56,803 nucleotides of DNA from a bacterium (GTDB lineage Bacteria > Eremiobacterota > Eremiobacteria > Baltobacterales > Baltobacteraceae). Shown here in pieces: positions 6,306 through 22,092 of this stretch; the stretch's first letter is position 1, and the number at the start of each line of letters is the position of its first letter. A program made the position numbers and the translations under genes. Location: contig JAJYHP010000051.1 in assembly GCA_021784715.1 (NCBI GenBank), forward strand, positions 1-56,803. Reading direction: 5' to 3'. The notes beneath the pieces were generated by a model. That model was given only the letters and a program-made list of their open reading frames with translations. It did not search any database and was not told the DNA's origin.

Positions 6306-6357
6306 CGTTCTTGTACGATGTCCTTTCTCCGGTCGTGCGACCGGGGTTATTGCCTTC

Positions 6358-6472: not shown

Positions 6473-7252
6473 ATGCATCTCGCCGTCAACGATATCGAAC
6501 TCTACGCCGAGATCCGAGGCGAGGGCGAAGCCGTCGTACTGCTCCACGGTTTCCCGTTGACGCATAGCATTTGGGAGGCGACGGCGGCTTCGCTCGCGCG
6601 CGAGTATCGCGTCGTCGCTCCCGACCTGCGCGGAATGGGGGAGTCGGGGCTCTCCGCGGGGCCGTATCTCATGGAGCAACTCGCAGGTGATATCGCGGCG
6701 ATGCTCGATGCGCTGGGAATCGAACGCGCAACGTTCGTCGGACACTCGCTCGGCGGCTACGTCGCACTCGCCTTCGCACGGATGTACGATGCGCGCGTCG
6801 CGCGCTTGGCGTTGGTAACGAGCCGGCTCGGATCCGACACGCCCGAGATCGCGCGGTCGCGTCGCGATCTCGCAGCGTGCGTCGAAGCGGAGAACTCCGT
6901 CGATGTCGTGCTCGATGCGATGTTGCCGCGTTTGGTGGCTCCCGCAAAAGCCGACGCGCTCGCCCAGATGCTGCGCGATATCGCTCGAAAGAACAACCCG
7001 GCGGGGCTCGCGGCGATGCTGCGCGGCATGGCGATGCGCGACGACGCACACGACATCGCCGCCGAACTCTCGATGCCGGTGAGCGTTGTTGCCGGTGGCG
7101 AGGATCGCGCGATCTCGCTCGATGAAGCGCGCGATTCCGCGACGAGTTTTCCCGACGCCGACCTCGTCATATTCGAAGGGGTCGGCCACCTACCGATGCT
7201 CGAGGATCCCGCCGGGTTGGAGCGGGCTCTTCGGGCGCTCCTCGCTCGGTAA
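6473..7252 (+). CDS. Alpha/beta-hydrolase fold protein
   Basis: A 259-residue single-domain hydrolase. The oxyanion region is LLHGFPLTHS, the nucleophile Ser is in GHSLGG, the acid Asp is probably in AGGEDRAI and the catalytic His is in GVGHLPMLE. Cap helices lie between residues about 125 and 190. The order and spacing match haloperoxidase, 3-oxoadipate enol-lactonase and esterase-like members, so the substrate cannot be assigned. Given the aromatic catabolism genes further on, a lactonase or ester hydrolase role is conceivable but there is no linkage. ATG 6473 is chosen because the protein begins directly with the first beta-strand; the upstream open frame reads antisense to the H1-like gene. 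Confidence 0.85.
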   Translation: MHLAVNDIELYAEIRGEGEAVVLLHGFPLTHSIWEATAASLAREYRVVAPDLRGMGESGLSAGPYLMEQLAGDIAAMLDALGIERATFVGHSLGGYVALAFARMYDARVARLALVTSRLGSDTPEIARSRRDLAACVEAENSVDVVLDAMLPRLVAPAKADALAQMLRDIARKNNPAGLAAMLRGMAMRDDAHDIAAELSMPVSVVAGGEDRAISLDEARDSATSFPDADLVIFEGVGHLPMLEDPAGLERALRALLAR

Positions 7253-7278
7253 GCGAACGAGGCTTGGGCTCGCTTACC
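7248..7278. terminator. Hairpin between convergent genes
   Basis: A 9-base inverted repeat, GGTAAGCGA (7248-7256) and TCGCTTACC (7270-7278), holds the stop codon of the hydrolase in one arm and that of the convergent small membrane protein in the other. It has no U-run, so intrinsic termination is uncertain. It may protect or separate both transcripts. Confidence 0.35.
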
Positions 7279-7462
7279 GCAGCGTAGGGAGGCGTCCCGA
7301 GCGGATCAGGGTCCGCCAGATCATGAGCGCGCCGAGGACGACGGCGGCAAGGATCGCCGCTACGATCGCCACCTTTAAAAGAGCGAACGCGACGATCACG
7401 GCAATGAAGAGGGCCGCGATGCCGATGGTGAGGCGCAGGTAGAGGGCGAGGGTCGGGTTCAT
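7274..7462 (-). CDS. Small two-helix membrane protein
   Basis: A 62-residue hydrophobic peptide with two predicted membrane helices in hairpin form (about residues 8-27 and 30-48), closed by a basic tail (WRTLIRSGRLPTLR). A clear AAGGAG ribosome-binding site precedes ATG 7462, which supports translation. No family is recognised. It converges on the hydrolase gene and diverges from the YjfB-like gene. Possible roles are a stress peptide or membrane-associated modulator, but nothing in the sequence decides. Confidence 0.65.
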   Translation of the reverse strand: MNPTLALYLRLTIGIAALFIAVIVAFALLKVAIVAAILAAVVLGALMIWRTLIRSGRLPTLR

Positions 7463-7506
7463 AGAGGAGTCTCCTTGACTTAAGAACCGAATTCCCCGGA
7501 AGGGGC

Positions 7507-7535
7507 TTGAAGGTTCACGTCGATTTACCGATACT
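7507..7535 (+). promoter_or_regulatory. Possible promoter of the YjfB-like small gene
   Basis: TTGAAG (7507-7512) lies 17 bases before GATACT (7530-7535), inside an AT-richer patch that also holds overlapping TACTAT and TATACA hexamers. A GGGAGG ribosome-binding site follows just before ATG 7562. The exact -10 hexamer is uncertain. Confidence 0.4.
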
Positions 7536-7561
7536 ATACAGGCAAAGTTTCGGGAGGTCTT

Positions 7562-7717
7562 ATGGATATCGCTGCTCTTTCAAGTGCTGCCTCCGGCTCG
7601 GTCGGGGCGGCCATCAATGTCTCATTGCTCAAAGCGACGCAAAACCTCGACCAAAGCGAGGCCGCGCTTCTTTTCGCTTCGATCGGCCTCGGCCAATCCG
7701 TGAATGCCCTTGCGTAG
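7562..7717 (+). CDS. YjfB-like small protein (putative motility protein family)
   Basis: A 51-residue ORF too short for usual gene calling. It begins MDIAALSSAASGSVGAAINV and continues with a segment SLLKATQNLDQSEAALL. This matches the layout of the YjfB family (PF14070): MDIAALS start, a short turn, then a VSLLK-like amphipathic helix and a hydrophobic tail. YjfB members are short proteins found near flagellar or chemotaxis genes in Firmicutes and others; their biochemical role is unknown. A GGGAGG ribosome-binding site lies seven bases before the ATG. It overlaps the next gene by 14 bases, suggesting co-translation. No other motility gene is in the window. Confidence 0.7.
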   Translation: MDIAALSSAASGSVGAAINVSLLKATQNLDQSEAALLFASIGLGQSVNALA

Positions 7718-8471
7718 GGTACTCGGGGCGCTGGGCGCCGCGCTCTTTGGGCTCGTGCTTCTCGGCGCGACCCCCGCAAACAAGCCGCTTCGGCGGCTCG
7801 TTTTTCGCTTTACCTACGGTGATACGAACGATATGACGATGCAATCCTCGGGTATCGGCGATGCCGGTGACACGAAGGGCGCACCGTCGACGGGGAGCGG
7901 CGGCTCGGGAATCGGCGATTTTGTGGCGCGCGTTGCCGACCACGGAACCATCGATGTCACGGTGAAGGCCGTGCAGCCCGACGGTGGCTTAGTTGTGAGC
8001 GTCGCGGAAAAGGCACGGAACACGCGCACCGCGCTTCCGGCAACCTGTATCGTGTACAGCAACACGACGGTGCTCTGCGACAAAACGAAAAAGGTCAATC
8101 TTGAAGAGATGGAGTTGCTGTCGTATCTCGGGCAAAACTTCGTCAACCCGGTGCAGATCGATGCCAAAGGACATTGGGGATTCAAGGTGAGAGGCGCGCA
8201 TAACTCAATGGTTTCCGGCTACACCATTCACGGACACAAAGGCTCGAAATTTTTCATCGACATGACGCGCACGTATTCGCAGAGCGGCCTCGACGCCTTT
8301 ACGTCGAACACCGTCGGGCACTTTACCTACGATGCGATGCGCACCGTTCCCACGTCGATCGTTGAAAGCGTCGTCACGCGCCGCCAGGGAAGTTTCGGCA
8401 AAAACGTTACGGATCGGACCGAAGTTTCATATAAGCTCATCGATGATTCGATGGCGCCGACGAAACCATAG
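7704..8471 (+). CDS. Secreted protein of unknown function
   Basis: A 255-residue protein with a signal peptide (basic MPLRR, hydrophobic core to about residue 24). The mature part is beta-rich with polar Gly/Ser linkers (TGSGGSGIGD) and one Cys pair (residues about 114 and 124). I recognise no family. It follows the YjfB-like gene with a 14-base overlap. Its stop (TAG, 8469-8471) falls exactly where the conserved N-terminus of the helicase frame begins. It is probably periplasmic or on the cell surface. Confidence 0.7.
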   Translation: MPLRRVLGALGAALFGLVLLGATPANKPLRRLVFRFTYGDTNDMTMQSSGIGDAGDTKGAPSTGSGGSGIGDFVARVADHGTIDVTVKAVQPDGGLVVSVAEKARNTRTALPATCIVYSNTTVLCDKTKKVNLEEMELLSYLGQNFVNPVQIDAKGHWGFKVRGAHNSMVSGYTIHGHKGSKFFIDMTRTYSQSGLDAFTSNTVGHFTYDAMRTVPTSIVESVVTRRQGSFGKNVTDRTEVSYKLIDDSMAPTKP

Positions 8472-11068
8472 AACCCTTCGCCTCTCTGCACGGAGCGGTC
8501 GCCGCTTGGTGCGAGAAAACTCTCGGCGAAGCGACCGCCCCGCAGCGCGAAGGCATCCCGGCTATACTCGAAGGCCGTCACGTTTTGATCTGTTCGCCGA
8601 CCGGCACGGGCAAAACGTTGACGGCCTTTTTGCCGATCTTTTCCGATCTCGCCGAACGTCGCGACCGCGACGAGCTGTTTGCGCGAACGACCGCGCTCTA
8701 CATCTCACCGTTGCGTGCGCTAGGCTACGATGTGGAACATAACGCGCGCCGCCCGCTGCGCGAGATGGGTTTGCTCGAACGCCCCGATTCCGAACGCGAC
8801 CGCGTGCGCCGCGGGAGGGTTCGGAGCCGTTTCGTTCGGACCGGCGTGCGAACCGGGGATACGCCGACGGCCGAACGCAGGCTCATGCTTTCGCGCCCCC
8901 CGCACATTTTGATGTCGACGCCGGAGTCGTTAGCGATCGTGCTCGCGATGGAGCGCTACCGCGCGACGCTGCGCGACGTGCGTTACGTCGTTATCGACGA
9001 AGTGCATGCCCTTGCCGCGAACAAGCGTGGGGCGTACCTCAGCCTACTGCTCGAGTCGCTCGAAGAGATCGTCCGCGCGCCGTTTCAACGGATCGGGCTC
9101 TCTGCAACCATCGCCCCGCTCGAGATCGTCGCCGAGTTTCTTACCGGGGCCGAACGCGATTGCACGATCGTCGATACGAGAGCGTCGCGCGAAATTTCGC
9201 TCGAGATTCGGGCGCCCTTTACCGGGGCGATGGCTCCCTTGGCGGCGATCGCTCGCGCCGCGCATTCCGAGATCGAGCGCGCCCGGACGACGCTCGTGTT
9301 TACGAACGTGCGGAGCCAAACCGAGCGCGTCGCCTACGAACTTCGCTCCCTCGACGGAGCGGGAAGCTGCGTCGAAGCAATCGAGGGGGATGCTGCGGTG
9401 CGGGATTCGGACGCGCGGATCGGCGTTCACCATAGCGCACTGGAGCGAAGCGTTCGCCACCGTACCGAGGCCCGCTTACGTGCGGGAGAATTGCGCGCGG
9501 TGGTCTGCTCCGCGTCGCTCGAACTCGGCGTCGATATCGGCGCGATCGAGCAAGTGCTGCTCGTCGGCGGTGCGCGCGGTGTCGTGACGACATTACAGCG
9601 CGTCGGACGCGCCGGCCACAGCCCGGGCGCTCTCGCGCGCGGCGTCGTGCTCGCCCAGGATCGCGACGATATCATCGAGGCCGCAGCGACGCGTCGTTGC
9701 ATCGCCGATGGCGCGATCGAGCAGATCGTCCTGCCTCGCGCGCCGCTCGACGTTCTCGCGCAATGGATGCTCTCGCTCGTCGTTCCCGAGCGGCGCATCG
9801 AGATCGATAGGGTGTTGGAGATCGCGCTCCGAGCGGCGCCGTTCCGCTCGTTGCTCCGCGAAGATCTGATCGCATGCGCCGCATATCTCGGCGGCGGCGG
9901 CGTCGCCGGCGACCCGGCGCACGTCCGTCGGCTGGGCTTCGACGGCGAAGCGATCTGGGGCTTAGGACGCGATGCGAGCGCCGCATTTTTTGAGAACGTC
10001 GGTACGATTCCCGACGAGCGCAGCGTTCCCGTCCGGATCGCCGGCGAGCGTTCCTTCGGGCGCCTCGAAGAATATTTCGTCGATCGTCTGCGCGTCGGGG
10101 ACGTCTTCGTTCTCGAAGGGCGGACGGTGCGCGTCGAATCGATCGATCGCGCCGGCATTACGACGAAAAACCACCGTGGGCGTCCGACCGTACCGCAATG
10201 GAACTCGCATATCCGGGGGATTGCGGCGCCGCTCGTCGAGGAGATCGACCGATTGCGCGAGGGAGTCGGCCGGCGATTGGAGGCCGGCGAACGAGCCGAA
10301 GCGGCCGCGTGGTTGAAACGACGATACGCGCTCGACGCCCGGCTCGCGGAAATGACGGTTGCGTACCTGGAGCAGCAGCGTGCGGTGAGCGCACTGCCGA
10401 ACCTTCGCCGCCCGGTCTTGGAGATCTACACTCTAGATGGCCTCCAGAGCGCTGTCGCGCTCACCGGCATCGGCAGGTGCGCGAACGAAGCGCTCGCGCG
10501 AGTGGCGGGAACGCGCATAGCGCGTTTGGTTACCGGAGCATCGAGCATTCTCACCGACGACCTTGGGTTTTTTCTGCAACTTCCGCCGCGCGCTCGGCTC
10601 GCCGACGCGCAATGGGAGAGGCTCTTGGAAGAAGGGGGGTTCGAACGCGACCTCCGCGAGGGGCTGCTCGGATCGGCGCTGCTTCGAACGCATTTTCGCT
10701 ACGTCGCGAACACCGGACTCCTGGTATTGCGGCGCGCAAATGGCCGCTCGCTTCGTGCCGCGTCGTTGCGCTGGAATAGTGGGCGCATTCTCGACCGACT
10801 GTTGCGCGAGGACGAGCGCTTCCCGCTCGTGCGCGAAACGTTTCGCAGCGTTTGCGATGACGTGCTCGACGTCGAGCGCGCGCGCGATTACTGCGCATCG
10901 CTGGTCGGTCCGCCGCGCGTCGTTCATCCACCGGTGGCGTCGCCGATGAGCTTCGGCATTCTCACGTCCTCCTTCGGCGACAGCGTCGTCGTTGCCGATC
11001 GCAGCGAGTTAGTCGAGGCCCTACACGATCGCGTTCTCGCCTATCTTGCGGGGGCGATCGCTCCGTGA
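8468..11068 (+). CDS. lhr: Lhr-core-type DEAD/DEAH helicase (ligase-associated repair helicase)
   Basis: About 866 residues, an SF2 helicase of the Lhr core family, a 3'-5' DNA translocase used in DNA repair. The Q-like N-terminus is clear (LHGAVAAWCEKTLGEATAPQ then REGIPAIL). Motif I is SPTGTGKT (about 43-50), motif II is DEVH (177-180), motif III is GLSATIAPL, motif V is ASLELGVDIG and motif VI is QRVGRAGHS, followed by the winged-helix and DEAD/H-associated domains. The conserved N-terminus has no ATG, GTG or TTG. The frame is closed by TGA at 8444, leaving ATA 8468 (overlapping the previous TAG) or CTG 8486 as the start. TTG 8585 would cut into the ATPase core. It is coupled to pdeM downstream. 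Confidence 0.88.
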   Translation: MEPFASLHGAVAAWCEKTLGEATAPQREGIPAILEGRHVLICSPTGTGKTLTAFLPIFSDLAERRDRDELFARTTALYISPLRALGYDVEHNARRPLREMGLLERPDSERDRVRRGRVRSRFVRTGVRTGDTPTAERRLMLSRPPHILMSTPESLAIVLAMERYRATLRDVRYVVIDEVHALAANKRGAYLSLLLESLEEIVRAPFQRIGLSATIAPLEIVAEFLTGAERDCTIVDTRASREISLEIRAPFTGAMAPLAAIARAAHSEIERARTTLVFTNVRSQTERVAYELRSLDGAGSCVEAIEGDAAVRDSDARIGVHHSALERSVRHRTEARLRAGELRAVVCSASLELGVDIGAIEQVLLVGGARGVVTTLQRVGRAGHSPGALARGVVLAQDRDDIIEAAATRRCIADGAIEQIVLPRAPLDVLAQWMLSLVVPERRIEIDRVLEIALRAAPFRSLLREDLIACAAYLGGGGVAGDPAHVRRLGFDGEAIWGLGRDASAAFFENVGTIPDERSVPVRIAGERSFGRLEEYFVDRLRVGDVFVLEGRTVRVESIDRAGITTKNHRGRPTVPQWNSHIRGIAAPLVEEIDRLREGVGRRLEAGERAEAAAWLKRRYALDARLAEMTVAYLEQQRAVSALPNLRRPVLEIYTLDGLQSAVALTGIGRCANEALARVAGTRIARLVTGASSILTDDLGFFLQLPPRARLADAQWERLLEEGGFERDLREGLLGSALLRTHFRYVANTGLLVLRRANGRSLRAASLRWNSGRILDRLLREDERFPLVRETFRSVCDDVLDVERARDYCASLVGPPRVVHPPVASPMSFGILTSSFGDSVVVADRSELVEALHDRVLAYLAGAIAP

Positions 11069-11787
11069 ATGCCGCTCCGCGCGCGCTCTCCGTATCGCTC
11101 GGCGGCGGCGCGCACGCGCTTCCCGGCGGATTGCTCTGGCTCGAAGCAACCGCGTCGCTCGTGGTCGCCGATCTCCACCTTGCCTACGAAGACGCGATCG
11201 GCGGCGCCTTGCCGATGTGGAGCCTCGACGAAAGCCGCGCCGCGCTCGAACGCGCGTGCTCCACGTACGGCGCGCGCGAACTGATCTTGCTCGGCGACGT
11301 GGTCCACGGCACGCAGCTCAGCGAGGGCGCGGCCGCGCGCGTGGTGACGATGATGCACGCTCTTCGAGCGTGCTGCACGTTGACGATCGTCGCCGGCAAT
11401 CATGAAGGGCGTTCGCGCGGAGCGGCCCTGCTCGGAGAATGCGTCGAGGAGATCGAGCGGGGCGGAATGCTGCTCCATCACGGCGATCGCCCGCGACTCG
11501 CGTTAGTCCGCCACGTGATCGGCCACCTGCATCCGAGTATCGCGCTCGGAGGGGATCGAAGCGTCCCGGCATTTCTCTCCGCCCCCGAAGCGATCGTCCT
11601 TCCTGCCGCGAATCCCTATTCGCGCGGTCTCAACGTTCTCGCTCGCGATTGTCGCACGGCGATCGCCGCCTACGGTGCTCGCGTCGCTTCGACGGACGTG
11701 ATCGCCGCAACGGCGACGCACTGCTATCCATTCGGAAGCATCGCCTCGCTCGCGCGCGCCGCGCGCGCCCTGCGTTTCGCTCGCTAG
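11065..11787 (+). CDS. pdeM: Ligase-associated metallophosphoesterase PdeM
   Basis: A 240-residue calcineurin-like phosphoesterase, predicted endonuclease or phosphodiesterase of the ligase-associated repair set. All metal-binding blocks are present in order: VVADLHLAYE (DxH), LLGDVVHG (GDxxH variant), VAGNHEGR (GNHE), LHHGD and IGHLHPSI (GHxH). The start is GTG 11065, whose GTG overlaps the helicase TGA, so the two are translated together. The family is characteristically found next to an Lhr-like helicase, an MBL-fold exonuclease and an ATP-dependent DNA ligase. Here only the helicase is adjacent, and the exonuclease is 11 kb away. Confidence 0.87.
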   Translation: MNAAPRALSVSLGGGAHALPGGLLWLEATASLVVADLHLAYEDAIGGALPMWSLDESRAALERACSTYGARELILLGDVVHGTQLSEGAAARVVTMMHALRACCTLTIVAGNHEGRSRGAALLGECVEEIERGGMLLHHGDRPRLALVRHVIGHLHPSIALGGDRSVPAFLSAPEAIVLPAANPYSRGLNVLARDCRTAIAAYGARVASTDVIAATATHCYPFGSIASLARAARALRFAR

Positions 11788-12329
11788 AAAATCCCGTGCG
11801 CCATGCCGATTGCAAATGCTGCGAGTGAAGGCCCCGCATGCATGCGCCGTTCGCGAACCGCGGCGAGCAATTCCTCGATCGTCAATTCCGTCGCTTCGAT
11901 CTGTTCGGTCGGTTCGAGCGCGGGCTCGCCTGCACGAAAGGCTCCGTCAGCAAAAAAGAGATGAGCCGTCGAAGTCGATCGCACCGGATCGGGGCGAAAC
12001 TCTCCAAGCAGCCGCCAATCGGGAGCCTCGTATCCGGTCTCCTCGCGCAATTCACGTCGCGCGCAATGGAGTGGATCTTCGGCACCTTCGAGCGATCCGG
12101 CGACGAATTCGAGGCCGACATCGTCGGATGCATAACGATACTGCTCGATGGCGAGAAATCGCCCCGTCGCCGTGCGCGCGATCACGATCGCAAAGCCGCG
12201 CGCCTCACGAATGTAGTAATCGGGAAGCACGGTGCCGTCGGGAAGTTCGATCTCATCGCGACGAATTTTGAGGTACGTCGAGTCGATGAGGTAGGTGCTC
12301 CTGAGACGTTTCCAAAACGGTCGCTTCAT
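11784..12329 (-). CDS. NUDIX hydrolase (ADP-ribose pyrophosphatase-like)
   Basis: A 181-residue NUDIX enzyme that should cleave a nucleoside-diphosphate linked to another moiety, ADP-ribose or similar, with Mg2+. The Nudix box is complete: GSLEGAEDPLHCARRELREE followed by TG, fitting GX5EX7REUXEEXGU. The preceding IEQYRYAS and following GEFRPDPVRSTSTAHLFFA are typical of the ADPRase/NudF branch. ATG 12329 is used because the frame upstream reads antisense into the divergent dehydrogenase. Its stop shares the CTAG palindrome with the convergent pdeM stop (three-base overlap). Confidence 0.88.
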   Translation of the reverse strand: MKRPFWKRLRSTYLIDSTYLKIRRDEIELPDGTVLPDYYIREARGFAIVIARTATGRFLAIEQYRYASDDVGLEFVAGSLEGAEDPLHCARRELREETGYEAPDWRLLGEFRPDPVRSTSTAHLFFADGAFRAGEPALEPTEQIEATELTIEELLAAVRERRMHAGPSLAAFAIGMAHGIF

Positions 12330-12381
12330 CTTCGCTAGGTGCGACGGGGCTTTACGAAGCCCTTGCGCGAAGGGGAGCGAT

Positions 12382-13968
12382 ATGGAGAGTACGTTTCTTG
12401 TCGTCGGCGCCGGAACGATGGGGCTTGGAATCGCCCTGCTCGCCGCCGAGCATGGCGAACGGGTAGAACTCGTCGAGAGCGATCCGGCCGCTCGCGCCCG
12501 GGCCGCCCAACGCATCGTCGGAACGACGATTCAACTACTCGAGGCGATTCCGGCGCAAAGCCTCGCGAGCGTTGCATTGGAGGCGGTTCCGGAGCGCTTT
12601 GCGCTCAAGCGCGATGCTCTGATCGCGATGGAGGCGGCAGTGGCGCCGACCGCGGTGCTCGCGAGCAACACCTCCTCGCTCGAACTCGGAGAGCTCGGAA
12701 AGGCGCTTCGGCGGCCGGAGCGTTTCGTCGGATTTCACTTTTTTAATCCCCCGCAGCAGATGCCCCTGGTGGAGATCGTCGTTACCGAGGTAGCCGATGA
12801 CGACGCGGTCGAGAGCGTACGAGCGCTCGCCGTGCGATTGGGGAAGAACGCGGTAGAAGCGACCGATACGCCGGGGTTTATCGTCAATCGCGTCGCGCGT
12901 CCGTTCTACTTGCAGGCATTGCGCGCGGAGCACGACGCGGTTGCTTCGATCGAGGAGATCGACGAACTCGCATTAGGGATCGGTTTCCCGATGGGACCGT
13001 TCGCGCTCATGGATTTCATCGGTCTCGACGTGAACTTGGCGACGAGCCGTTCGCTCTTCGAACGGACCGGCGCGCCGCGCTTCGAGCCGGTCGAAACCCA
13101 GATCGCACTCGTCGAGGGCGGAGCGCTCGGCCGGAAAAGCGGCAAGGGTTTTTACGATTACGAGGGCGGCGAACGCCCGCCGCGAGCGGTCGATCCGCCT
13201 ACGGAATTCGAAGAAGGAACGTTCGACGAGCGTCTCTGCATCCTCGGGTTCGGTGCGCTCGCCGACGACATTTCTACCGAGGCTGAAGCTGCGATCGGCG
13301 CGATCGATCGCATCGAGAACGACGAGTTTCTCGCCGATATCGATCCGTCGATCACGATCGCCTTCGACGCGGGCGATGGGACGACCGATCGTACCGAAGC
13401 GTTGCTGGAGATCGAAGGACTTCTCGACCCGACCTGCGCGATGTTTTTCGATGCGTACTGCACCGATATCAAGGCGCTGCTCAAGCGAGCCCGACATCCC
13501 GAACGATTTATCGCCTACGGCATACTTGGGTTACTCGCCTCGCAGCGCGTCGTGGAGATCGTCGATCACGATGCGCTCGACGACGAGATGCTGGCGCTCG
13601 CGCAAGAATTCTTCGAGCGGCTCCATAAGCGCGTGGTATTGGTGGCTCCGTCCCCGGGGCTCGTCCTGGGGAGGATCGTCGGTTCCATCGTGAACGAAGC
13701 GGTGATCGCGGTCCACGAAGGAGTTGCGAGTGCAGAAGACGTCGATCTCGCGATGCGCTTGGGGACGAACTATCCGCTCGGCCCGATCGCATGGGGACGC
13801 GAGATTGGCGGAGCGCGCATCGCTCGGATTCTGCGCGCACTTGCGGCGGAGGACGGACCGGATTTCGGCCCGCACCGCGCGCTGTGGTTGCTCGATCTCG
13901 ACGAGAATGCCGCGCCGGGCGAAGGCGCGCCGCTCGGTGAGGATGGCAGCGAGGAAGAAGCGGAATGA
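12382..13968 (+). CDS. 3-hydroxyacyl-CoA dehydrogenase (PaaH/FadB-type)
   Basis: A 528-residue NAD-dependent enzyme that oxidises 3-hydroxyacyl-CoA to 3-oxoacyl-CoA. The Rossmann motif is VGAGTMGLGIALLAAEHG (residues about 8-25). ASNTSSLELGEL and RFVGFHFFNPPQQMPLVEIV carry the active-site Ser, His and Asn. The first C-terminal helical domain starts at DTPGFIVNRVARPF. After about residue 290 comes a degenerate second domain with an echo of the first (RFIAYGILGLLASQRVVEIV) and a second 3HCDH C-terminal domain (APSPGLVLGRIVGSIVNEAV). PaaH of E. coli has the same two-part design at 475 residues. ATG 12382 has an AGGGGAG site. Its TGA overlaps the thiolase ATG. Confidence 0.87.
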   Translation: MESTFLVVGAGTMGLGIALLAAEHGERVELVESDPAARARAAQRIVGTTIQLLEAIPAQSLASVALEAVPERFALKRDALIAMEAAVAPTAVLASNTSSLELGELGKALRRPERFVGFHFFNPPQQMPLVEIVVTEVADDDAVESVRALAVRLGKNAVEATDTPGFIVNRVARPFYLQALRAEHDAVASIEEIDELALGIGFPMGPFALMDFIGLDVNLATSRSLFERTGAPRFEPVETQIALVEGGALGRKSGKGFYDYEGGERPPRAVDPPTEFEEGTFDERLCILGFGALADDISTEAEAAIGAIDRIENDEFLADIDPSITIAFDAGDGTTDRTEALLEIEGLLDPTCAMFFDAYCTDIKALLKRARHPERFIAYGILGLLASQRVVEIVDHDALDDEMLALAQEFFERLHKRVVLVAPSPGLVLGRIVGSIVNEAVIAVHEGVASAEDVDLAMRLGTNYPLGPIAWGREIGGARIARILRALAAEDGPDFGPHRALWLLDLDENAAPGEGAPLGEDGSEEEAE

Positions 13969-15170
13969 GCGCTCGCGAGGTCTGGGCGGTCGATGCCGTG
14001 CGAACGCCGATCGGTCGGCTCGGTGGCGCCCTCGCCGGGGTGCGCCCCGACGATCTCGCAGCGACGGTCGTGCGCGCGGTGCTCGAACGCACCGGCTTCG
14101 ATCCCTCGGAACTCGGCGACGTGTACTTCGGGGCTGCGAACCAGAGCGGTGAAGATAATCGAAACGTCGCGCGGATGGCCGCGTTATTGGCGGGGCTCCC
14201 CGTCGAGGTTCCCGGAACGACGTTTAATCGGCTCTGCGGTTCGAGTTTGCAGGCGATCAACAGTGCCGCGCATGCAATCGCATGGGGTGAGTGCGACGCG
14301 ATCCTCGCCGGCGGCGTGGAATCGATGACGCGAGCGCCCTACGTCATGCCGAAGAACGCGCAGCCCTTCGCCCGCGACGCGCGACTTTACGACACCACAA
14401 TTGGCTGGCGCATGGTGAATCCGAAGATGCCGGAGCGTTGGACGATCTCGCTCGGCGAGACTGCCGAGCGCGTCGCCGAGATCGACGGTATCGCGCGCGA
14501 GGCACAAGATCGTTTCGCCGTGGCATCGCAGGAAAAATGCGCGGCGGCGCTCGCGCGTGGTGCTTTTGCCGACGAACTCGTAGCGGTGAAGATCCCCCAT
14601 CGCGACGGCGAGCGCGCGGTCGAGCGCGACGAACATCCACGCCCGGATACGAGCTACGAACGGCTCGCCGCGCTCGCCGCGGCCTTCCGCGAAAACGGAA
14701 CGGTTACCGCGGGAAATTCCTCGGGACTCAACGATGGTGCCGCCGCACTATTGCTCGTCGAAGCGCAATGCGCGCGCCGACACGGGCTGCAACCGATGGC
14801 GCGCGTCATCGCCACCGGCGTCGCCGGCGTCGCCCCCGAGATCATGGGCATCGGTCCGGTTCCCGCGATGCACGCGGCGTTACGCTTCGCCGGGCTGCGC
14901 CTCGACGAGATCGATCTCGTCGAGCTCAACGAGGCGTTCGCCGCGCAGTCTTTGGCCTGTATCGAGCGGCTCGGGCTCGATCCGGCGCGCGTCAACGTCA
15001 ACGGCGGTGCGATCGCGCTCGGTCACCCGCTCGGAGCGAGCGGCGCGCGCATCGCGACCACGCTGCTGCACGAGATGCGCCGACGCGGCACGAAATATGG
15101 CGCTGCGACGATGTGTGTCGGCGTCGGACAGGGGATCGCTACGATCTTCGAAGGAATGAACTCCCGATGA
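13965..15170 (+). CDS. Thiolase (acetyl-CoA acyltransferase / 3-oxoadipyl-CoA thiolase-like)
   Basis: A 401-residue type II thiolase that splits 3-oxoacyl-CoA with CoA. The nucleophilic Cys91 is in [10 protein letters not shown]. The [23 protein letters not shown] (catalytic His) and CVGVGQG (second Cys) blocks are intact. Length matches PaaJ/PcaF and AtoB, which sequence alone does not separate. Position between a hydroxyacyl-CoA dehydrogenase and an aldehyde dehydrogenase in a region with PaaX and a BoxB-like oxygenase favours a 3-oxoadipyl-CoA role, by inference. It overlaps both neighbours by ATGA, so the three genes are translationally coupled. Confidence 0.9.
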
Positions 15171-16648
15171 GCGTGACGCAGCAAGCGACGAAATTATTGA
15201 TCGGTGGAAAGTGGGTCGACGCCGAGAGGAGCTATATCGACTATAACCCGGCGACGGGAGAAGAGCTCGCCCGCGTCGGCGACGCCTCGAAAAGCGAATG
15301 CGATGCGGCGGTCGCGGCGGCGAGGGCGGCGTTCGATGCGGGAAAATGGTCGGGGATGCCGGCTTCGCGGCGCGCGAAAATTCTCAACAAAATAGCCGCG
15401 CGCATCGGCGAGATGGCGAGTTCGATTACGGACTCGGAGATTCGCGATAACGGCAAGGCATTGGCGACGGCAAAGGGCGAGATCGGCGCGATCGTCGATT
15501 GCTTCGAGTTCTACGCTGGAGCGATTCTCACGTTCGGCGGGCAAACGCTCTCGGGGCCGTTGCCGAGTTATTTTTCGTACACGTTGCGCGAACCGATCGG
15601 CGTCGTCGGGGCGATCGTGCCGTGGAATTTCCCGCTCTTGCTGGCGAGTTGGAAGGTCGCTCCGGCGCTCGCTGCGGGTTGCACCGTGGTCTTAAAACCG
15701 GCGCCCGCGACCCCGCTCACGGCGCTCGCGCTCGGCGAAATCGCACTGGAGTGCGGGCTTCCCGAGGGCGTTCTCAACATCGTCACCGGAGCGGGGCGTG
15801 AGTTGGGACAGTGGCTCGTCGAACATCCGAGCGTCGATAAAATTGCCTTTACCGGAAGCACGCAGACGGGGCGAAGCGTCGCGGCCGCTGCGGCGCAGTC
15901 GTTGAAACGCGTAACGTTGGAGCTCGGCGGAAAATCGCCGACGCTGGTCTTCGAGGATGCCGATATCGACGCTGCGGTTGCGGCATCGATTTATGCGATC
16001 TATTACAACAGCGGGCAGGCCTGCGAAGCGCGTTCGCGCGTGTTGATTCACGAGTCGGTCTACGATCGTTTCGTCGAAGCGTTTACGAAGCGTAGCGCCG
16101 GGTTGCGTCAAGGCGATCCGCTCGATCCACAAACGCAGATCGGCGCGATTACCATGCGCGAGCAATTCGAGAAAATCGAACGCTACTGCGCGCTCGGGAT
16201 CGCCGAGGGTGCTCGTTTGCTCTTCGGCGGCAAAGCTGCCGAGATCGGCGGTCCCTTCGCCGCTGGAACGTTTTGGCAACCGACGGCCTTCGAGGCCGAA
16301 CCGAGCCATCGCATCGCCCGCGAGGAGATCTTTGGTCCGGTCGTCGTCTTTTCGCGCTTTCATGACGAACGCGAGGCGATTGCCATGGCGAACGACTCCG
16401 AATACGGGCTTGCGGCGAGCGTTTGGACGCGCGATATCGGGCGCGCGCACCGCATCGTTCGTGCCCTGAGAAGCGGCACGGTTGCGGTCAATGCGCCGTA
16501 CAGCGTCTTCCCCGGGGTGCCGTTCGGCGGCTATAAATCGTCGGGGTACGGTCGCGAACTCTCCGCCGATACGCTCGCGCTCTACAGCGAAACGAAGAGC
16601 GCGCTCGTCCAAATCGGCGAGCGCGCGATGAATCCGTTCGGCGTGTAG
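15167..16648 (+). CDS. NAD(P)-dependent aldehyde dehydrogenase
   Basis: A 493-residue class I/II-like aldehyde dehydrogenase. [20 protein letters not shown] binds the cofactor, FTGSTQTGR is the Rossmann loop, Glu252 is in LELGGKSP and nucleophilic Cys286 is in [23 protein letters not shown] and [13 protein letters not shown] end the fold. Most relatives have GQxCxAGSR; the Glu and Ala residues after the Cys here are slightly unusual. In box or paa pathways an aldehyde dehydrogenase (BoxD, PaaZ) oxidises a ring-opened CoA semialdehyde, which is a reasonable guess from the neighbours. The true start is ATG 15167, overlapping the thiolase TGA; the frame is open far upstream only as a shadow. Confidence 0.9.
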
Positions 16649-17098: not shown

Positions 17099-18613
17099 CT
17101 ATCCGGGCTGCGCGTTCCTCTCGCGAGGCTCGGCGAGCGGTAGGGAGCGGGCGATATGGGCGGGCAGGAAGCCCTTGCCGAGTCGGTTCCATCGAGGGCT
17201 TCCGTCGTCGAGCAGCACCGAGGCGCCGCGCTCGCGCACGAGTTCGCCGATGCGCACTTCCGACTCGATGAACGCCGCATCGCAATCCTGCGAGCGCGCG
17301 AAAGCGACGCTCGCCTCGTCGGTATCGGCGAGGACGACGACGTAGCCCTCCTCTTCCAAGGCGCGTGCGCGCTCGGTGCTCGCCGGATCGATGCCGGCGA
17401 GTACTACCACGGGCTGGCGAAGTCGTAGGATCCGCGACGCCACGATGGAGAGTACCGTCGAAATCGAGACGGTCAAGACGATGACGACAAAGAGCACCTC
17501 GGAGAAGCGATTCCCGCCGCGAAAGCCCCATGCGGTTAATTGCGTCGCATAATAGGTTGCAAGAGAGACGGCGACGATGCCGCGCGGAAAGACGGTGCAG
17601 GCGAAAATGCGCTCGCGCATGTTGAGCGCCGATCGCGCCGTGGCTATGGCGACGACGACTATGCGCAAGAGCACCAACGTGCCGGCGATCGCCGCGCCGA
17701 CGCCGACGAGCGGCAGAACCGAGGCGATGCGAATCTGCGACGCGAGCAAGACGAAGACGGTCGAGAGCGCGAGGATCGAGAGATCTTCTTTGTACGAGCG
17801 GAGCAATCGTTCGCTGGGCAGACCGCGAAAATCGACGACGAGCGCGCAGGCGATAACTGCGGTGAGCCCGCTCTCCTGCGCGACGAACTCGCCGAGCGCG
17901 TACGCTCCGAAGGCCAATGCGAGCAGCAGCAGTTTTGTGACGTCGCTCGACCACGCGCGGGCGTAGCGCCGCAGCAAAAACAGGCCGATCGCGCCGACGA
18001 GGAGCCCGACGATCGCGCCCGAGCCGAGCCGTTCGACCGTTGCCAGCGCGGTGAGGAACGGGCCGCGCTCGCGCGTGGTAAACGAGGTAAAGGTTGCCGC
18101 AGCGACGATGACGCCCATCGCGTCGAGCAAGATTCCCTCGGACTCGAGAAGATGTCGCAGTTCCGGGCGGAGGCGGAGACGAGCGAGGAGCGGCCCGGTG
18201 ACGGTCGGGCCAGTGACGATGCAGGCCGATGCCAGCATCGCCGCGACGATGGTGGAGAGCCCGAACGCACGCGCGAGATGAGGGATGACGATCAGGGTCA
18301 GGCCCGCACCGAAAATGACGAGCAAGAAGAGCGGACGCTTCGGTAAGCGGCCGATGTCGATACGCAGCGTCGCCTCGAACAGCACGATGACGACGCAGAG
18401 GGAGAGCAGCGCACGCGTCGCCGGAGCGGCGAGATCGAGGTGGAGAAAGTCGAGTCCGCTCGGGCCGAGTGCGAGGCCGATGGTCAGGAGCGTGATGATC
18501 GAGGGAATGCCGAAGCGCCGGGAGAGCGCGCGCGCGAGCAACGCCGCGACGAGCACGGCGGCGGCGCCGAATTCCACCACGAGCGCGGGGTAACGCGCGA
18601 AGATCGAACTCAC
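17099..18613 (-). CDS. CPA-type cation:proton antiporter with C-terminal nucleotide-binding-like domain
   Basis: A 504-residue membrane antiporter with about 12 hydrophobic segments (residues 8-395) and a cytosolic tail resembling a truncated TrkA-N/RCK domain (VVVLAGIDPASTERARALEE, YVVVLADTDEASVAFA). In the core, the helix that in Na+/H+ exchangers carries the TDP or ND pair reads CIVTGPTVTGPLL, so the usual Asp is absent, as in a known subset of CPA proteins. The start is GTG 18613, which overlaps the PaaX TGA (GTGA). It is thus the second gene of a paaX-antiporter operon. The ion transported is unknown; pH or cation balance during acid-releasing aromatic degradation is a possible role. Confidence 0.85.
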   Translation of the reverse strand: MSSIFARYPALVVEFGAAAVLVAALLARALSRRFGIPSIITLLTIGLALGPSGLDFLHLDLAAPATRALLSLCVVIVLFEATLRIDIGRLPKRPLFLLVIFGAGLTLIVIPHLARAFGLSTIVAAMLASACIVTGPTVTGPLLARLRLRPELRHLLESEGILLDAMGVIVAAATFTSFTTRERGPFLTALATVERLGSGAIVGLLVGAIGLFLLRRYARAWSSDVTKLLLLALAFGAYALGEFVAQESGLTAVIACALVVDFRGLPSERLLRSYKEDLSILALSTVFVLLASQIRIASVLPLVGVGAAIAGTLVLLRIVVVAIATARSALNMRERIFACTVFPRGIVAVSLATYYATQLTAWGFRGGNRFSEVLFVVIVLTVSISTVLSIVASRILRLRQPVVVLAGIDPASTERARALEEEGYVVVLADTDEASVAFARSQDCDAAFIESEVRIGELVRERGASVLLDDGSPRWNRLGKGFLPAHIARSLPLAEPRERNAQPG

Positions 18614-19428
18614 GGCCCTGCGTTCCGATCGAAGAATCGATTCGAGCGATCGTGGAGCAATGCGTAATATTCGCGGAAAACGGCCGCGGCGGTGCTGCCC
18701 GGCCAGTGTGCTGGCAAGAGGACACTGGGAAGTGCCGGGTCGACGTAGGTGAATTTGCGATAGTCGTGTACGAGCCAGAGCCGTTCGACGAAAGCATCGC
18801 GCTCGCCGAAGGCCCGCGCGCTCCGTTCGGCGTTCAGACGCGGCCGATAGAGTTCGGTGAAGCGTTCGTAGGCTGCAGCGATCGCCGGAAGATTCCAACA
18901 GCGCGCAACCAAAGCCGCATCGCTCCCAGGGCCGCGATGCGAGCTTTCAAAGATCGCGATATCGCCACTCGCCTCGGCCTCCGCCGCCGCCGCCGCGACC
19001 GCAGCGAGATCGCCGTTCGGGGATATCCAGGTCGCGGTCGCCAGCGGCGCCCATCCAAGGACCGCGAGCTCCTTTCGCAAGCGGTCGCGCCGGTCGCGGC
19101 GGCGCTCGTCGATCGAATAGACGAGCATCCGCCAGTGTCCGTCCCAGTCCACGAGCGGGCCGTAGATACGTGGGCTGAGCTCCTCGATCCGCCGCCGACC
19201 GCGATCCGTCACGGCGTAATAGGCACGATTTCCGCTGCGCTCGGCACGGAGCCATCCCTGGCGCGCGAGCCGGGAGACCGACTGGCGGACCGCGGCCTCT
19301 GAGACACCGAAGGGGTCCATCAAGCGCACCAGCCCGGCGAGGGCGACCCGTTGCTCCCCAGGGCGACGGGTCACGATGTCGCCATAAATGTTAAAAATGA
19401 AGGAATTTGGGCGCGAAACCTCTCTCAT
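18610..19428 (-). CDS. paaX: PaaX-family transcriptional repressor
   Basis: A 272-residue GntR-like winged-helix regulator. The N-terminal part (NSFIFNIYGDIVTRR, VSEAAVRQSVSRLARQGWLR, YYAVTDRGRRRIEE) matches PaaX, the repressor of phenylacetate genes that is released by an aryl-CoA ligand. The middle (WDGHWRMLVYSIDERRRDRR) is the ferredoxin-like PaaX domain, and the tail is the PaaX C-terminal domain. ATG 19428 is preferred since the family starts shortly before NSFIF; the frame extends to 19599 but overlaps the divergent oxygenase gene. It is divergent from the BoxB-like gene across a 73-base, AT-rich gap, the expected place for its operator. Confidence 0.9.
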   Translation of the reverse strand: MREVSRPNSFIFNIYGDIVTRRPGEQRVALAGLVRLMDPFGVSEAAVRQSVSRLARQGWLRAERSGNRAYYAVTDRGRRRIEELSPRIYGPLVDWDGHWRMLVYSIDERRRDRRDRLRKELAVLGWAPLATATWISPNGDLAAVAAAAAEAEASGDIAIFESSHRGPGSDAALVARCWNLPAIAAAYERFTELYRPRLNAERSARAFGERDAFVERLWLVHDYRKFTYVDPALPSVLLPAHWPGSTAAAVFREYYALLHDRSNRFFDRNAGP

Positions 19429-19501
19429 TAGACTTTTGTCGTATATCATTTCTTGCACGGTATGCGATTCTTTTGTCACAATAGTCCTTGCCGGAGGGTG
19501 T
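19429..19501 (+). promoter_or_regulatory. Divergent paaX / boxB-like control region
   Basis: This 73-base gap is markedly AT-richer than its surroundings. Toward the oxygenase a -35 box TTGCAC (19453-19458) and a -10 box CACAAT (19477-19482, spacer 18) are seen, then a GGAGGG ribosome-binding site before ATG 19502. CTTTTGTC occurs twice, at 19433-19440 and 19470-19477, the second overlapping the -10. ATGCGATTC (19462-19470) resembles half of a PaaX box as I recall it. Repression by PaaX is an inference. Confidence 0.5.
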
Positions 19502-20629
19502 ATGGCTGCGCGAATCTCGACTTTTGACGACTGGATCGACCTGTTGCAATCCTGGCAGAACGATATCGGTCTGGACCGCGAGCTGATCGAACGTTTCATG
19601 CCCGGATACCGCTTCGAGGCGAAATACGGCGAGCTGCCGACCTCGGAGATCTATTTCGGTGATTTTAAGGGTGAGCGCCGCTGGGAACGGGTCACCGAAA
19701 TTCCCGACCAGCGTATGCGCGATGCAGCGTTGAACATGATCGTCTATCAGGGCGACACCGAGTTTGCTTCGAACGAGCAGCAGCGTTTCCTGGTGAATAA
19801 CGCACCGACGGAGTACGATCTCGCCGCGCTCGTTCGCATTATGGTTGAAGAGACGCGACACGGTTACCAGATGTGTCACCTCTTGGTCGAGCAGTTTGGT
19901 AGCGAGGGACGCATCGAAGCGCAGAAAATGCTCGAACGGCGAGCGTTCGGCAAGAAAAACCGTCTCTTGAATGCGTTCAACGAAGACGTAACGCATTGGC
20001 TCGATTTCTTTGCGTACACGAACTTCATGGATAGAGACGGCAAGTTCCAGCTAACGATGCTCTCGCATTCGGCGTTCGCTCCGCTCGCCGCTTCGATGGG
20101 ACCGATGTTGCGCGAAGAGAGCTTCCACATGGGCACGGGAATCTCGGGGCTGCGCCGGATCGCCAAGGCCGGAGTCATTCCGGTGGAGATCCAGCAGAAG
20201 TATTACAACAAATGGATCTCGGGTTCGCTCGATCTTTTCGGAACCGATCATTCCGGTTCGGCACAATGGGCCTATACGTGGGGAATCAAAGGCCGGGTCG
20301 ACGAGGATAAGCTCTCGGAAGAGGTCGATAAAGAGGTGCTCAACGAACGCGCGCGCGAGCAGTTCTACGACGAGGTCGTCCAGACGGTGCAGCGCGTCAA
20401 CGATGTAAATGCGAGCGAGAAGAAGCTCTACGTTCCCGATATGAAGTTTAACCGAAAGATCGGCCAGTATTCCGATCGGCATTTCGCAGTCGACGGGCGC
20501 CCGCTCTCCGATGAAGAATGGACGACATACGAAGCGAGCGTGCTCCCCTCACCTGCAGACGACGTACTCCTGAAAGAGTACTTCAAAGACTCGTCGTGGA
20601 TCGCCGCGAAGGGCGATCTCCGCGCGTAA
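19502..20629 (+). CDS. BoxB-like di-iron epoxygenase (benzoyl-CoA epoxidase family)
   Basis: A 375-residue ferritin-like oxygenase predicted to epoxidise an aryl-CoA ring with O2. Candidate iron ligands are Glu87, Glu117, His120 (ETRH), Asp177 (in MDRDGKFQL), Glu206 and His209 (ESFH). The intervals 30-3-57-29-3 almost equal those I recall for Azoarcus BoxB (30-3-58-29-3). The Asp in RDGK points to BoxB and not PaaA. It is about 100 residues shorter than BoxB, and no PaaB/C/D/E or BoxA reductase is nearby. The start at ATG 19502 has a GGAGGG site; the frame from 19388 is a shadow of the regulator promoter. Divergent PaaX supports control by an aryl-CoA. Confidence 0.8.
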   Translation: MAARISTFDDWIDLLQSWQNDIGLDRELIERFMPGYRFEAKYGELPTSEIYFGDFKGERRWERVTEIPDQRMRDAALNMIVYQGDTEFASNEQQRFLVNNAPTEYDLAALVRIMVEETRHGYQMCHLLVEQFGSEGRIEAQKMLERRAFGKKNRLLNAFNEDVTHWLDFFAYTNFMDRDGKFQLTMLSHSAFAPLAASMGPMLREESFHMGTGISGLRRIAKAGVIPVEIQQKYYNKWISGSLDLFGTDHSGSAQWAYTWGIKGRVDEDKLSEEVDKEVLNERAREQFYDEVVQTVQRVNDVNASEKKLYVPDMKFNRKIGQYSDRHFAVDGRPLSDEEWTTYEASVLPSPADDVLLKEYFKDSSWIAAKGDLRA

Positions 20630-20668
20630 ATTCTTACGATATCACCGAAGAAAGAAAAGAGAACGAAC

Positions 20669-21523
20669 ATGAGCGGCAACGGAAGCACGACGCAGAGCAC
20701 TCCCTTCGGGCGCGAGGAACGCGCCTTCGAAGGAAAACGCGTCATCAACTATCACGTGGACGGGCACGTCGGCGTCGTCGAGATGGACGATCCCCCGGCA
20801 AATACCTATACCCACGAGATGATGCGACAGCTCGACGAAGCGATCGTCGACGCGCGCTTCGATTCAAACGTCGAAGTGATTTTGCTCATCGGCAAGGGCG
20901 AGAAATTTTTCTCCGCGGGCGCGAATATCGCCATGCTCAATTCGGTGACTCCGGAATTCAAATACATGTTCTGCTTGCACGCCAACGAGACGCTCTCGCG
21001 TTTGGAACAGACGCCGAAACTCGTCATCGCCGCGCTCAACGGCCACTGCGTCGGCGGCGGGATGGAAATCGCGATGGCCGCCGACATTCGCATCGCCCGC
21101 AAGGATGCGGGAAAGATCGGGCTGCCCGAAGTCGCGCTCGGCGTGCTCCCGGGAACGGGCGGGACGCAGCGTCTCGCGCGCCTCGTCGGGAAATCGCGCG
21201 CGATCGAGTTGATGGTGACCGGCAAGACGTTTAGCTTCGAACAAGCCGCCGACTGGGGCATCGTCAACGACGTCCTCGAAGGCGATGCGGCGAGCTTTCG
21301 CGAGCAGATGCTCGCATACGCCCGCCAGTTCTGCACGCCGAACAAGGCGCCGATGGCGGTCGGACATATCAAGCGCGCGGTCCAGAGCGGCGCGGAGATG
21401 CCGCTGGAGGCGGGGTTGACGCTCGAACGCGAACTGCAGTCGTTGCTATTTAAGAGCGGCGATGCGAAAGAAGGCATCGCCGCCTACAACGAAAAACGCG
21501 TGGCGCGCTTCAAAAACGGGTGA
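20669..21523 (+). CDS. Enoyl-CoA hydratase/isomerase (crotonase family)
   Basis: A 284-residue crotonase-fold enzyme. The oxyanion-hole segments are FSAGANIAML and GHCVGGGMEIAMAADI. Both catalytic Glu residues of true hydratases are kept: one in GGGMEIAM, one in GLPEVALGVLPGTGGTQRL. It therefore probably hydrates a 2,3-enoyl-CoA, as PaaF does, or acts in isomerisation like PaaG. About 30 extra N-terminal residues precede the fold (STTQSTPFGREERAFEGKRV). It lies 39 bases after the BoxB-like gene, so both share a transcript. It is far too short to be BoxC (about 550 residues), so ring cleavage by a BoxC-type lyase is not shown here. Confidence 0.88.
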   Translation: MSGNGSTTQSTPFGREERAFEGKRVINYHVDGHVGVVEMDDPPANTYTHEMMRQLDEAIVDARFDSNVEVILLIGKGEKFFSAGANIAMLNSVTPEFKYMFCLHANETLSRLEQTPKLVIAALNGHCVGGGMEIAMAADIRIARKDAGKIGLPEVALGVLPGTGGTQRLARLVGKSRAIELMVTGKTFSFEQAADWGIVNDVLEGDAASFREQMLAYARQFCTPNKAPMAVGHIKRAVQSGAEMPLEAGLTLERELQSLLFKSGDAKEGIAAYNEKRVARFKNG

Positions 21524-21759
21524 AACGCTGGGAGACGCGCCTCGCCTTGCTCGCGGTCATCCTCGCGAGCCTCTCGGCGCTGAATATCCCGGGGCGTCTC
21601 TTGCTCGCGCTCACCGCGATGCTGTTGCTCTCGATCATCGCGAGCGCGCGGCTGCGCGCGGCGCTCTACGGTAAAAAAGAGCGTTCCACCGGATTCGATC
21701 CCGCCGCCGCGGCGGAACGAATCCGCGAGGAGCGCTCTCACCGTTTCACGCGCCGCTAG
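21520..21759 (+). CDS. Small membrane protein of unknown function
   Basis: A 79-residue protein with two closely spaced hydrophobic stretches (about residues 7-20 and 25-42) and a charged C-terminal half (YGKKERSTGFDPAAAAERIR). No family is recognised. It starts at GTG 21520, overlapping the TGA of the hydratase (GTGA), so translation is likely coupled. Being third in the BoxB-like operon, it might anchor or modulate something there, but nothing in the sequence says what. Confidence 0.6.
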   Translation: MKRWETRLALLAVILASLSALNIPGRLLLALTAMLLLSIIASARLRAALYGKKERSTGFDPAAAAERIREERSHRFTRR

Positions 21760-21816: not shown

Positions 21817-22092
21817 ATGGTTACCGCATTTATCCTTATGAACGTCGAGCGCCCGCGCTTGAAATCGATCGCCGACGATCTGTTGGCGATCGACGGGATC
21901 GCCGAAGTCTATTCGGTCGCCGGGCCGTTCGATCTCGTCGCCATCGCGCGCGTGCGCGAGCACGAACAGCTCAACGATCTCGTTACCGAGCGCGTCGGAG
22001 CGCTCGAGGGCATCGAATCGACAGAGACGTTGATCGCGTTCCGCTCCTTTGCGAAGAAAGATCTCGGTTTGCTCTGGGATATCGGGGAGTAG
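21817..22092 (+). CDS. Stand-alone Lrp/AsnC ligand-binding (RAM) domain protein
   Basis: A 91-residue protein consisting only of the alpha/beta RAM domain of Lrp/AsnC regulators: TAFILMNVERPR, then IAEVYSVAGPFDLVAIARV, LNDLVTERVGALEGIESTET. In full-length Lrp proteins this fold binds amino acids and drives oligomer assembly. The helix-turn-helix is missing. Solo RAM proteins exist in archaea and actinobacteria and may sense amino acids or modulate partner regulators. It sits alone between the catabolic operon and a convergent secreted-protein gene. Confidence 0.85.
   Translation: MVTAFILMNVERPRLKSIADDLLAIDGIAEVYSVAGPFDLVAIARVREHEQLNDLVTERVGALEGIESTETLIAFRSFAKKDLGLLWDIGE

Follow-up and report, generated by a model that had tools for sequence, protein, structure and literature searches.

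Two described systems lie close to the locus considered here. The Box pathway attacks benzoyl-coenzyme A (benzoyl-CoA) with the di-iron oxygenase BoxB, whose iron ligands we took from PMC5489048, and with BoxC, described as a two-domain enzyme. The PaaABCE phenylacetyl-CoA epoxidase contains PaaA, a member of the same Pfam family as the oxygenase described below, and PaaX is the repressor associated with phenylacetate. We analysed a stretch of 56,803 nucleotides (contig JAJYHP010000051.1 of assembly GCA_021784715.1, hereafter the window), which is contig C39 of a 2.2 Mb, 45-contig, ~90% complete genome and encodes a compact BoxB-type oxygenase followed by a single-domain crotonase. The locus is real, conserved and of a compact Box type, a role in benzoyl-CoA breakdown is likely as judged from sequence, and taken as a whole the locus is probably a compact form of the aerobic Box pathway. 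An earlier note, made from the letters of the window alone, had seen here a possible minimal aryl-CoA route without its usual partners; the observation itself is confirmed, while the interpretation is partly supported.

The oxygenase open reading frame (ORF) is a genuine conserved gene with 4094 homologues at E ≤ 1e-3, showing 77-100% identity among the 120 matches listed. Its 375 residues compare with 474-476 for the canonical BoxB rows (one fragmentary row of 380 residues was set aside), which bears out its description as compact. The six residues to which a BoxB-type ligand spacing had been ascribed (E87, E117, H120, D177, E206 and H209) all align with the BoxB iron ligands E120, E150, H153, D211, E240 and H243. 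Besides these ligands the benzoyl-CoA contact residues Gln116, Thr119, Ser123 and Phe193 are present, and in 61 out of 61 aligned BoxB-side sequences each of the six ligands is identical and all ten ligand and contact residues are invariant. The predicted fold matches BoxB over 366 residues and PaaA over 243, a comparison that speaks to the families in its match list, and in the tree the protein is placed on the BoxB side, with canonical BoxB forming a separate 100/100 clade that does not include it. For reasons of long branches the second oxygenase tree omitted L144, L135, L136 and the PaaC rows; the first tree, which includes them, carries the warning that long branches meet. The trees neither establish nor reject a single clade uniting the compact oxygenases as a whole (p-AU 0.127). 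Membership in PaaA or PaaC is rejected on tree, pocket residues and fold, as the earlier reading of a BoxB-like and not PaaA-like enzyme had it; the protein scores 38.8 bits with the PaaA model TIGR02156 (curated cut-off 280) and 44.4 bits with PF05138 PaaA_PaaC (gathering score 28.5). The closest relatives bearing a name come from metagenomes and are for the most part entered as Candidatus Eremiobacterota, with oxygenase identities of 69-99% across loci L002-L052, and the search for relatives on plasmids gave 30 matches, all below 60% identity, those annotated under the match being BoxB or PaaA. As a separate observation, families f9 and f13 of the phylum carry a third PF05138 type of 413-436 residues (L133, L134, L142), whose identity to the window oxygenase is about 30%. 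The three that were read all have the BoxB iron ligands, and the crotonase described next is present in all six genomes having this type.

The crotonase consists of one ECH_1 stretch of 284 residues and does not have the two domains of BoxC, in line with the short crotonase in place of BoxC that had been proposed. Its Cys102, Glu133 and Glu154 align with Cys111, Glu146 and Glu168 of the reference BoxC, which we take to be the catalytic residues of BoxC, and they are identical in 71 out of 71 linked crotonases. With a home-made profile from four BoxC N-domains the window crotonase reached 82.6 bits, above 19 of 20 comparison crotonases (2ppy 96 bits, Haladaptatus 71, the other 18 at most 58), and the 71 linked crotonases reached 75-101. 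The own_C30fadJ row was dropped from this test and from the second crotonase tree; in the first tree, for which 24 listed positions were picked after looking, it was basal to the set of ECH1, BoxC, Thermus and Haladaptatus (99/96). Among 130 ECH1-invariant columns only N86 and M89 are private to ECH1 plus all four BoxC rows, and with 2ppy set aside N86, M89, K98 and C102 are private to ECH1 and the BoxC rows.

The two genes are tightly linked across phyla. In 70 of the 80 relative loci, more than 230 residues of an ORF align with the window crotonase at 65% identity or more. Nine of the ten others (L024, L027, L037, L051, L052, L055, L056, L078 and L080) are cut by a contig end close to the oxygenase or contain a fragment of the crotonase; the tenth, L054 from Zixibacteria, has none in 4.7 kb. 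The pairing recurs in other bacterial phyla. Between the window and Acidobacteriota or Planctomycetota the crotonases share 68-74% identity and the oxygenases 53-56%, so that conservation is stronger in the crotonase than in the oxygenase. A Thermus plasmid (L152) and a Haladaptatus plasmid (L153) also carry crotonases, with about 40% identity to that of the window and within a few kb of genes labelled 'Phenylacetic acid catabolic protein' and an aldehyde dehydrogenase, which suggests other small aryl-CoA epoxidase clusters.

Co-occurrence was studied in 118 genomes of the phylum, 84 of them at least 90% complete. Compact oxygenases are present in 66, namely the 80 matched genomes minus six with the third, distant type and eight with canonical BoxB only. 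The crotonase accompanies the compact oxygenase in 63 of these 66 and occurs without it in seven genomes, six of which have the third oxygenase type. Canonical BoxB was found in 12 genomes and PaaA over its cut-off in 11, seven of the latter from one genus. In the genome of the window, at its ~90% completeness, PF05138 finds only the window oxygenase and no PaaA, PaaC or canonical BoxB; the PaaE model TIGR02160 finds no match (PaaB and PaaD were not searched for genome-wide), and the single BoxA match has 30.6 bits against a cut-off of 459. Three AMP-binding ligases were found, all on other contigs. The reported lack of BoxA, Paa subunits and a ligase nearby thus stands, and for BoxA, PaaA, PaaC and PaaE it extends to the whole genome. 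Neither of the outcomes named beforehand as speaking against the earlier note, a placement of the oxygenase within PaaA or a ferritin group and a complete box or paa operon elsewhere in its own genome, was observed.

The oxygenase is nevertheless no orphan, as genes for a dehydrogenase, a thiolase and an aldehyde dehydrogenase, overlooked in the earlier note, are located 3-7 kb upstream (Table 1). By sequence they correspond to activities that the later steps of a Box or Paa pathway would be expected to need. The dehydrogenase scores 302.9 bits with TIGR02279 PaaH (cut-off 669.4) and 359.5 with PRK08268 (508), and the thiolase 550 with PRK09050 (605) and 541.1 with TIGR02430 (597). For the aldehyde dehydrogenase the best NCBIfam match is BADH with 500 bits (669), HpaE also matches with 480 (638), and the top 25 NCBIfam matches do not include BoxD. 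Among 51 Eremiobacterota loci, many of them cut by contig ends, our home-made gene caller, which misses or mis-starts genes in GC-rich DNA, placed the dehydrogenase cluster in 38, the thiolase in 33, the aldehyde dehydrogenase in 38 and the regulator in 38 (the regulator in none of 27 Acidobacteriota loci). The gene order in relatives according to blastp is dehydrogenase-thiolase-aldehyde dehydrogenase-(PaaX)-oxygenase-crotonase, and the aldehyde dehydrogenase adjoins the oxygenase in Acidobacteriota loci as well. Since these lower-pathway genes lie upstream and recur in relatives, the descriptions 'minimal' and 'without its usual partners' are unsupported. The proposed mix of two pathways is better described as one pathway of Box type, in which the regulator is of the PaaX family and the lower enzymes are of Paa type.

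Table 1. Features of the locus in the window.
Feature	Position	Strand	Remarks
3-hydroxyacyl-CoA dehydrogenase, PaaH type, start uncertain	12376..13968	+	PF02737, PF00725; predicted 3-hydroxyadipyl-CoA dehydrogenase
3-oxoadipyl-CoA-type thiolase (PaaJ/PcaF-like)	13965..15170	+	PRK09050 and TIGR02430 matches below cut-off
Aldehyde dehydrogenase	15173..16648	+	PF00171, 560 bits; predicted oxidiser of ring-opened CoA semialdehyde
Na+/H+ exchanger	17099-18595	opposite strand	between aldehyde dehydrogenase and regulator
PaaX-family regulator	18610..19428	-	divergent from oxygenase; listed ORF extends to 19599, start ~19428 read from sequence
Compact BoxB-type di-iron oxygenase, 375 aa	19502..20629	+	PF05138; predicted benzoyl-CoA 2,3-epoxidase
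Single-domain crotonase, 284 aa	20669..21523	+	PF00378, 180 bits; predicted ring-opening dihydrolase (BoxC substitute)
Small hydrophobic protein, 79 aa	21520..21759	+	overlaps crotonase stop by 4 bases; membership uncertain

The regulator contains the three PaaX domains PF07848, PF20803 and PF08223 over their gathering scores, as the earlier assignment to the PaaX type implied, and reaches 229.9 bits with TIGR02277 PaaX (curated cut-off 264.55). From its family and position we infer PaaX control of the locus; in 52 sequences from the region upstream of the oxygenase, no conserved PaaX palindrome was found. The tiny hydrophobic ORF behind the crotonase is indeed present and has no Pfam or NCBIfam match; similar ORFs occur near the crotonase in some Eremiobacterota loci, with 91-98% identity in near and 37-59% in further relatives. 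Elsewhere in the window we noted a stand-alone Lrp/AsnC ligand-binding domain of 91 residues (21817-22092), which is found downstream of the cluster in many relatives with 81-100% identity, and two dynamin-type stretches in a 925-residue protein (44487-47264, minus strand). A periplasmic-binding-protein gene is followed, by reading, by genes for a branched-chain-amino-acid-type ATP-binding cassette (ABC) permease and ATPase (36506-40560); ABC transporters of this type frequently take up aromatic acids.

Clues to the substrate come from relatives and from other contigs of the same genome. Acidobacteriota loci are arranged as TetR regulator-crotonase-aldehyde dehydrogenase-oxygenase-(CoA transferase)-second crotonase-(CoA transferase)-rhodanese-molybdenum hydroxylase-amidohydrolase, and 16 of 27 contain the cluster of the large molybdenum subunit. 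A single locus, L059, was scored; there this subunit reaches 1025 bits, over the 4-hydroxybenzoyl-CoA reductase (HCR) cut-off of 994.55; the beta subunit (310 bits, cut-off 404.55) and the gamma subunit (185, cut-off 257.8) stay under theirs, and the beta subunit has an extra Cys-rich loop, presumably a mark of HCR. The Eremiobacterota locus L047 encodes a benzoate-CoA ligase-family protein (583.6 bits, cut-off 375.25) and, by reading only, a CoA-transferase-like ORF. The window's own genome carries an HCR-like alpha gene on contig C43 (L150, C43:10000-29900; 7709-11561; 855 bits, cut-off 994.55), a benzoyl-CoA-reductase-like cluster on C40 (L097, C40:38000-55900; 6778-13466) and on C31 a gene of the salicylyl-CoA 5-hydroxylase/2-aminobenzoyl-CoA monooxygenase type (L098, C31:48000-67900; 5268-12371; NF006101 1201 bits, cut-off 1078). 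For C40 the Bcr, Had and Oah models all fall short of the curated cut-offs, and the one model that exceeds its own is the generic activase domain TIGR00241; across the phylum the BcrC model has matches at E ≤ 1e-60 in 19 of the 118 genomes, 18 of them with a compact oxygenase. Together, the L059 reductase, the L047 ligase and the HCR-like, Bcr-like and salicylyl/2-aminobenzoyl-CoA genes of the same genome make benzoyl-CoA the most likely candidate substrate of the oxygenase. The three own-genome loci contain further genes. In L150, reading of the sequence revealed a beta subunit with an additional Cys-rich loop, a small gamma with two clusters and, close by, an XdhC-like gene. L097 has BcrA/D-type activases, BcrB, BcrC, Had-like and Oah/BadI/MenB-like proteins and, by reading only, a Dch-like crotonase. 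The L098 gene is accompanied by an acyl-CoA dehydrogenase and a member of the benzoate-CoA ligase family, as well as by a RidA-like ORF identified by reading.

In the proposed pathway the oxygenase would introduce one oxygen of O2 into the benzoyl-CoA ring, giving 2,3-epoxybenzoyl-CoA, which the one-domain crotonase with its BoxC-like Cys/Glu/Glu site would open hydrolytically to a C6 CoA semialdehyde and formate. The aldehyde dehydrogenase would convert the semialdehyde to dehydroadipyl-CoA, and a further hydratase, the PaaH-type dehydrogenase and the PaaJ-type thiolase would lead to succinyl-CoA and acetyl-CoA, while a PaaX-family repressor sensing an aryl-CoA may control the divergent promoter. 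Electrons would be provided by a ferredoxin- or flavodoxin-type donor rather than BoxA. None of the 118 genomes has BoxA over its cut-off, and this holds for the 12 canonical-BoxB genomes as well; three weak matches of 77-81 bits are left at E ≤ 1e-20. In L110, one of the canonical box clusters, the benzoate-CoA ligase has a flavodoxin gene beside it (97.7 bits; L110:5547-6113). A search for a dedicated reductase came to nothing: the sole NAD_binding_1 match (27.4 bits) lies beside a pyrF-like gene and is, by reading only, PyrK-like. This raises the question of where BoxB obtains its electrons when BoxA does not exist.

Several observations weigh against this assignment. The oxygenase scores 233.3 bits with the BoxB model TIGR03225, under the curated cut-off of 499.1, and two second-shell positions facing the ring are changed: Tyr172 replaces BoxB F206 in 55 of 56 compact rows, and Met, Val or Ile at 176 replaces T210 in all 56, Val at this position also being found in nine of 11 PaaA rows. 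Two ligases of the same genome score 360 and 304 bits, under the benzoate-CoA ligase cut-off of 375. The compact gene is found in four of the 12 canonical-BoxB genomes (one copy is a fragment at a contig end) and is consequently not simply a replacement for BoxB. Three f2 genomes, all from one genus, hold canonical BoxB alongside the compact oxygenase and its crotonase, and one of them, G032, has ligase, BoxC and BoxB in its box locus (L110) and also dehydrogenase, thiolase, aldehyde dehydrogenase, compact oxygenase and crotonase; this leaves room for a different substrate. The oxygenase might then epoxidise another aryl-CoA, such as hydroxy- or amino-benzoyl-CoA or another ring CoA ester, with benzoyl-CoA itself left to canonical BoxB or benzoyl-CoA reductase. 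The changes at 172 and 176, the f2 genomes and the salicylyl/2-aminobenzoyl-CoA and HCR-like genes would agree with this, but we consider it rather unlikely: the remaining contact residues are those of BoxB, and the HCR in the L059 operon and the ligase in L047 point to benzoyl-CoA. Redundancy alone proves little, given that Betaproteobacteria are described in PMC10803450 as having paralogous benzoate-CoA ligases in contexts of Box type.

A phenylacetyl-CoA substrate has to be weighed too. The compact oxygenase avoids PaaA genomes (it is present in one of 11, G084) more clearly than BoxB genomes (Fisher 0.001 for PaaA, such values ignoring shared descent), and the compact enzyme could thus be doing PaaA's job. 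It would be a single-component phenylacetyl-CoA 1,2-epoxidase replacing PaaABCE under PaaX control; the crotonase would then stand in for PaaG, and the aldehyde dehydrogenase for a part of PaaZ. The PaaX-family regulator and the PaaH/PaaJ-type enzymes fit this picture, and PaaX of E. coli responds to phenylacetyl-CoA according to PMC4498308. We regard the idea as distinctly unlikely, because the pocket residues are BoxB-type and not PaaA-type, with fold and tree on the same side, and the crotonase has both hydratase glutamates and a BoxC-type Cys, whereas both glutamates are missing from the three PaaG rows. The L059 operon moreover contains a reductase forming benzoyl-CoA, G084 holds a paaZABCDEGIJK run plus the compact oxygenase, and with seven of the 11 PaaA genomes in one genus the exclusion may reflect descent. 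The six paa loci read all contain paaABCDE, with adjacent paaZ in L124-L126 and L128 and a partial paaZ in L127; a comparison of L124-L129, from other genomes, with the window's neighbours for in-place replacement by a paa operon gave weak or paralogous matches only.

The likeness of the crotonase to BoxC has its limits as well: the two group weakly in trees (94/88 in the first, 83/62 in the second), overall identity places the crotonase closer to 2ppy, Thermus and others than to BoxC, and in NCBIfam it resembles generic enoyl-CoA hydratases. The oxygenase might also be a mere relative of the ferritin-like kind that lacks oxygenase activity, with the crotonase taking part in ordinary beta-oxidation, as this last resemblance might allow; we hold this to be very improbable in view of the ten ligand and contact residues identical in all 61 rows and the tight linkage and co-occurrence of both genes across phyla. 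We know of no assay of the compact oxygenase group.

Returning to the compact Box pathway, if this reading is true, proteins that among the top 120 matches are variously labelled 'benzoyl-CoA 2,3-epoxidase subunit B', 'Phenylacetic acid catabolic protein' and 'phenylacetate-CoA oxygenase subunit' would form one testable enzyme group, and aerobic benzoyl-CoA breakdown would reach phyla about which little is known: Eremiobacterota, Acidobacteriota and, by name only, Gemmatimonadota and others. They would also offer a small single-chain model of aromatic-ring epoxidation and a one-domain model of BoxC chemistry. Our literature search gave no description of the compact group, with subscription papers mostly outside its reach and absence therefore unproven. 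More speculatively, compact oxygenase and one-domain crotonase may together be a separate, widespread Box lineage, possibly ancestral to the 475-residue BoxB and the two-domain BoxC, that does without BoxA and draws its electrons from a low-potential ferredoxin or flavodoxin of general use. This lineage would sit on a hub of benzoyl-CoA to which 4-hydroxybenzoyl-CoA reductase and benzoyl-CoA reductase are also connected; we offer this tentatively, as a possibility we would not yet favour. One lineage would then be able to attack the same ring with or without oxygen.

Compared with the known systems, the regulator shares with the PaaX repressor its three domains and lies divergent from the oxygenase, but it scores below the TIGR02277 cut-off and stands beside a BoxB-type gene with no conserved palindrome found upstream. 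PaaA of the PaaABCE epoxidase has the Pfam family and iron ligands in common with the window oxygenase; it differs in the pocket residues and in the length of the fold match (243, not 366, residues), and no PaaC or PaaE partner was found for the window enzyme. The best PDB sequence match of the crotonase is 2ppy, labelled 'enoyl-CoA hydratase' and presumably from Geobacillus, which shares the FC..NE segment but has Asp in place of Asn86. Reference BoxC, with 556 residues against 284 in a single domain, is only 25-28% identical overall, yet Cys/Glu/Glu in matching positions and the SAGANI.ML and FC..NE segments are common to both. BoxB of Azoarcus evansii (PDB 3per/3pm5/3q1g) is longer (~475 residues), with extra residues after window residues 1, 23, 32, 222, 274 and 361 and at the C-terminus; it has F206 and T210 where the compact oxygenase has Tyr and Met/Val/Ile, and its partner BoxA was not found in the window's genome. 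In contrast to these differences, BoxB and the compact oxygenase agree in the fold over 366 residues, in all six iron ligands and in the Gln/Thr/Ser/Phe set around benzoyl-CoA.

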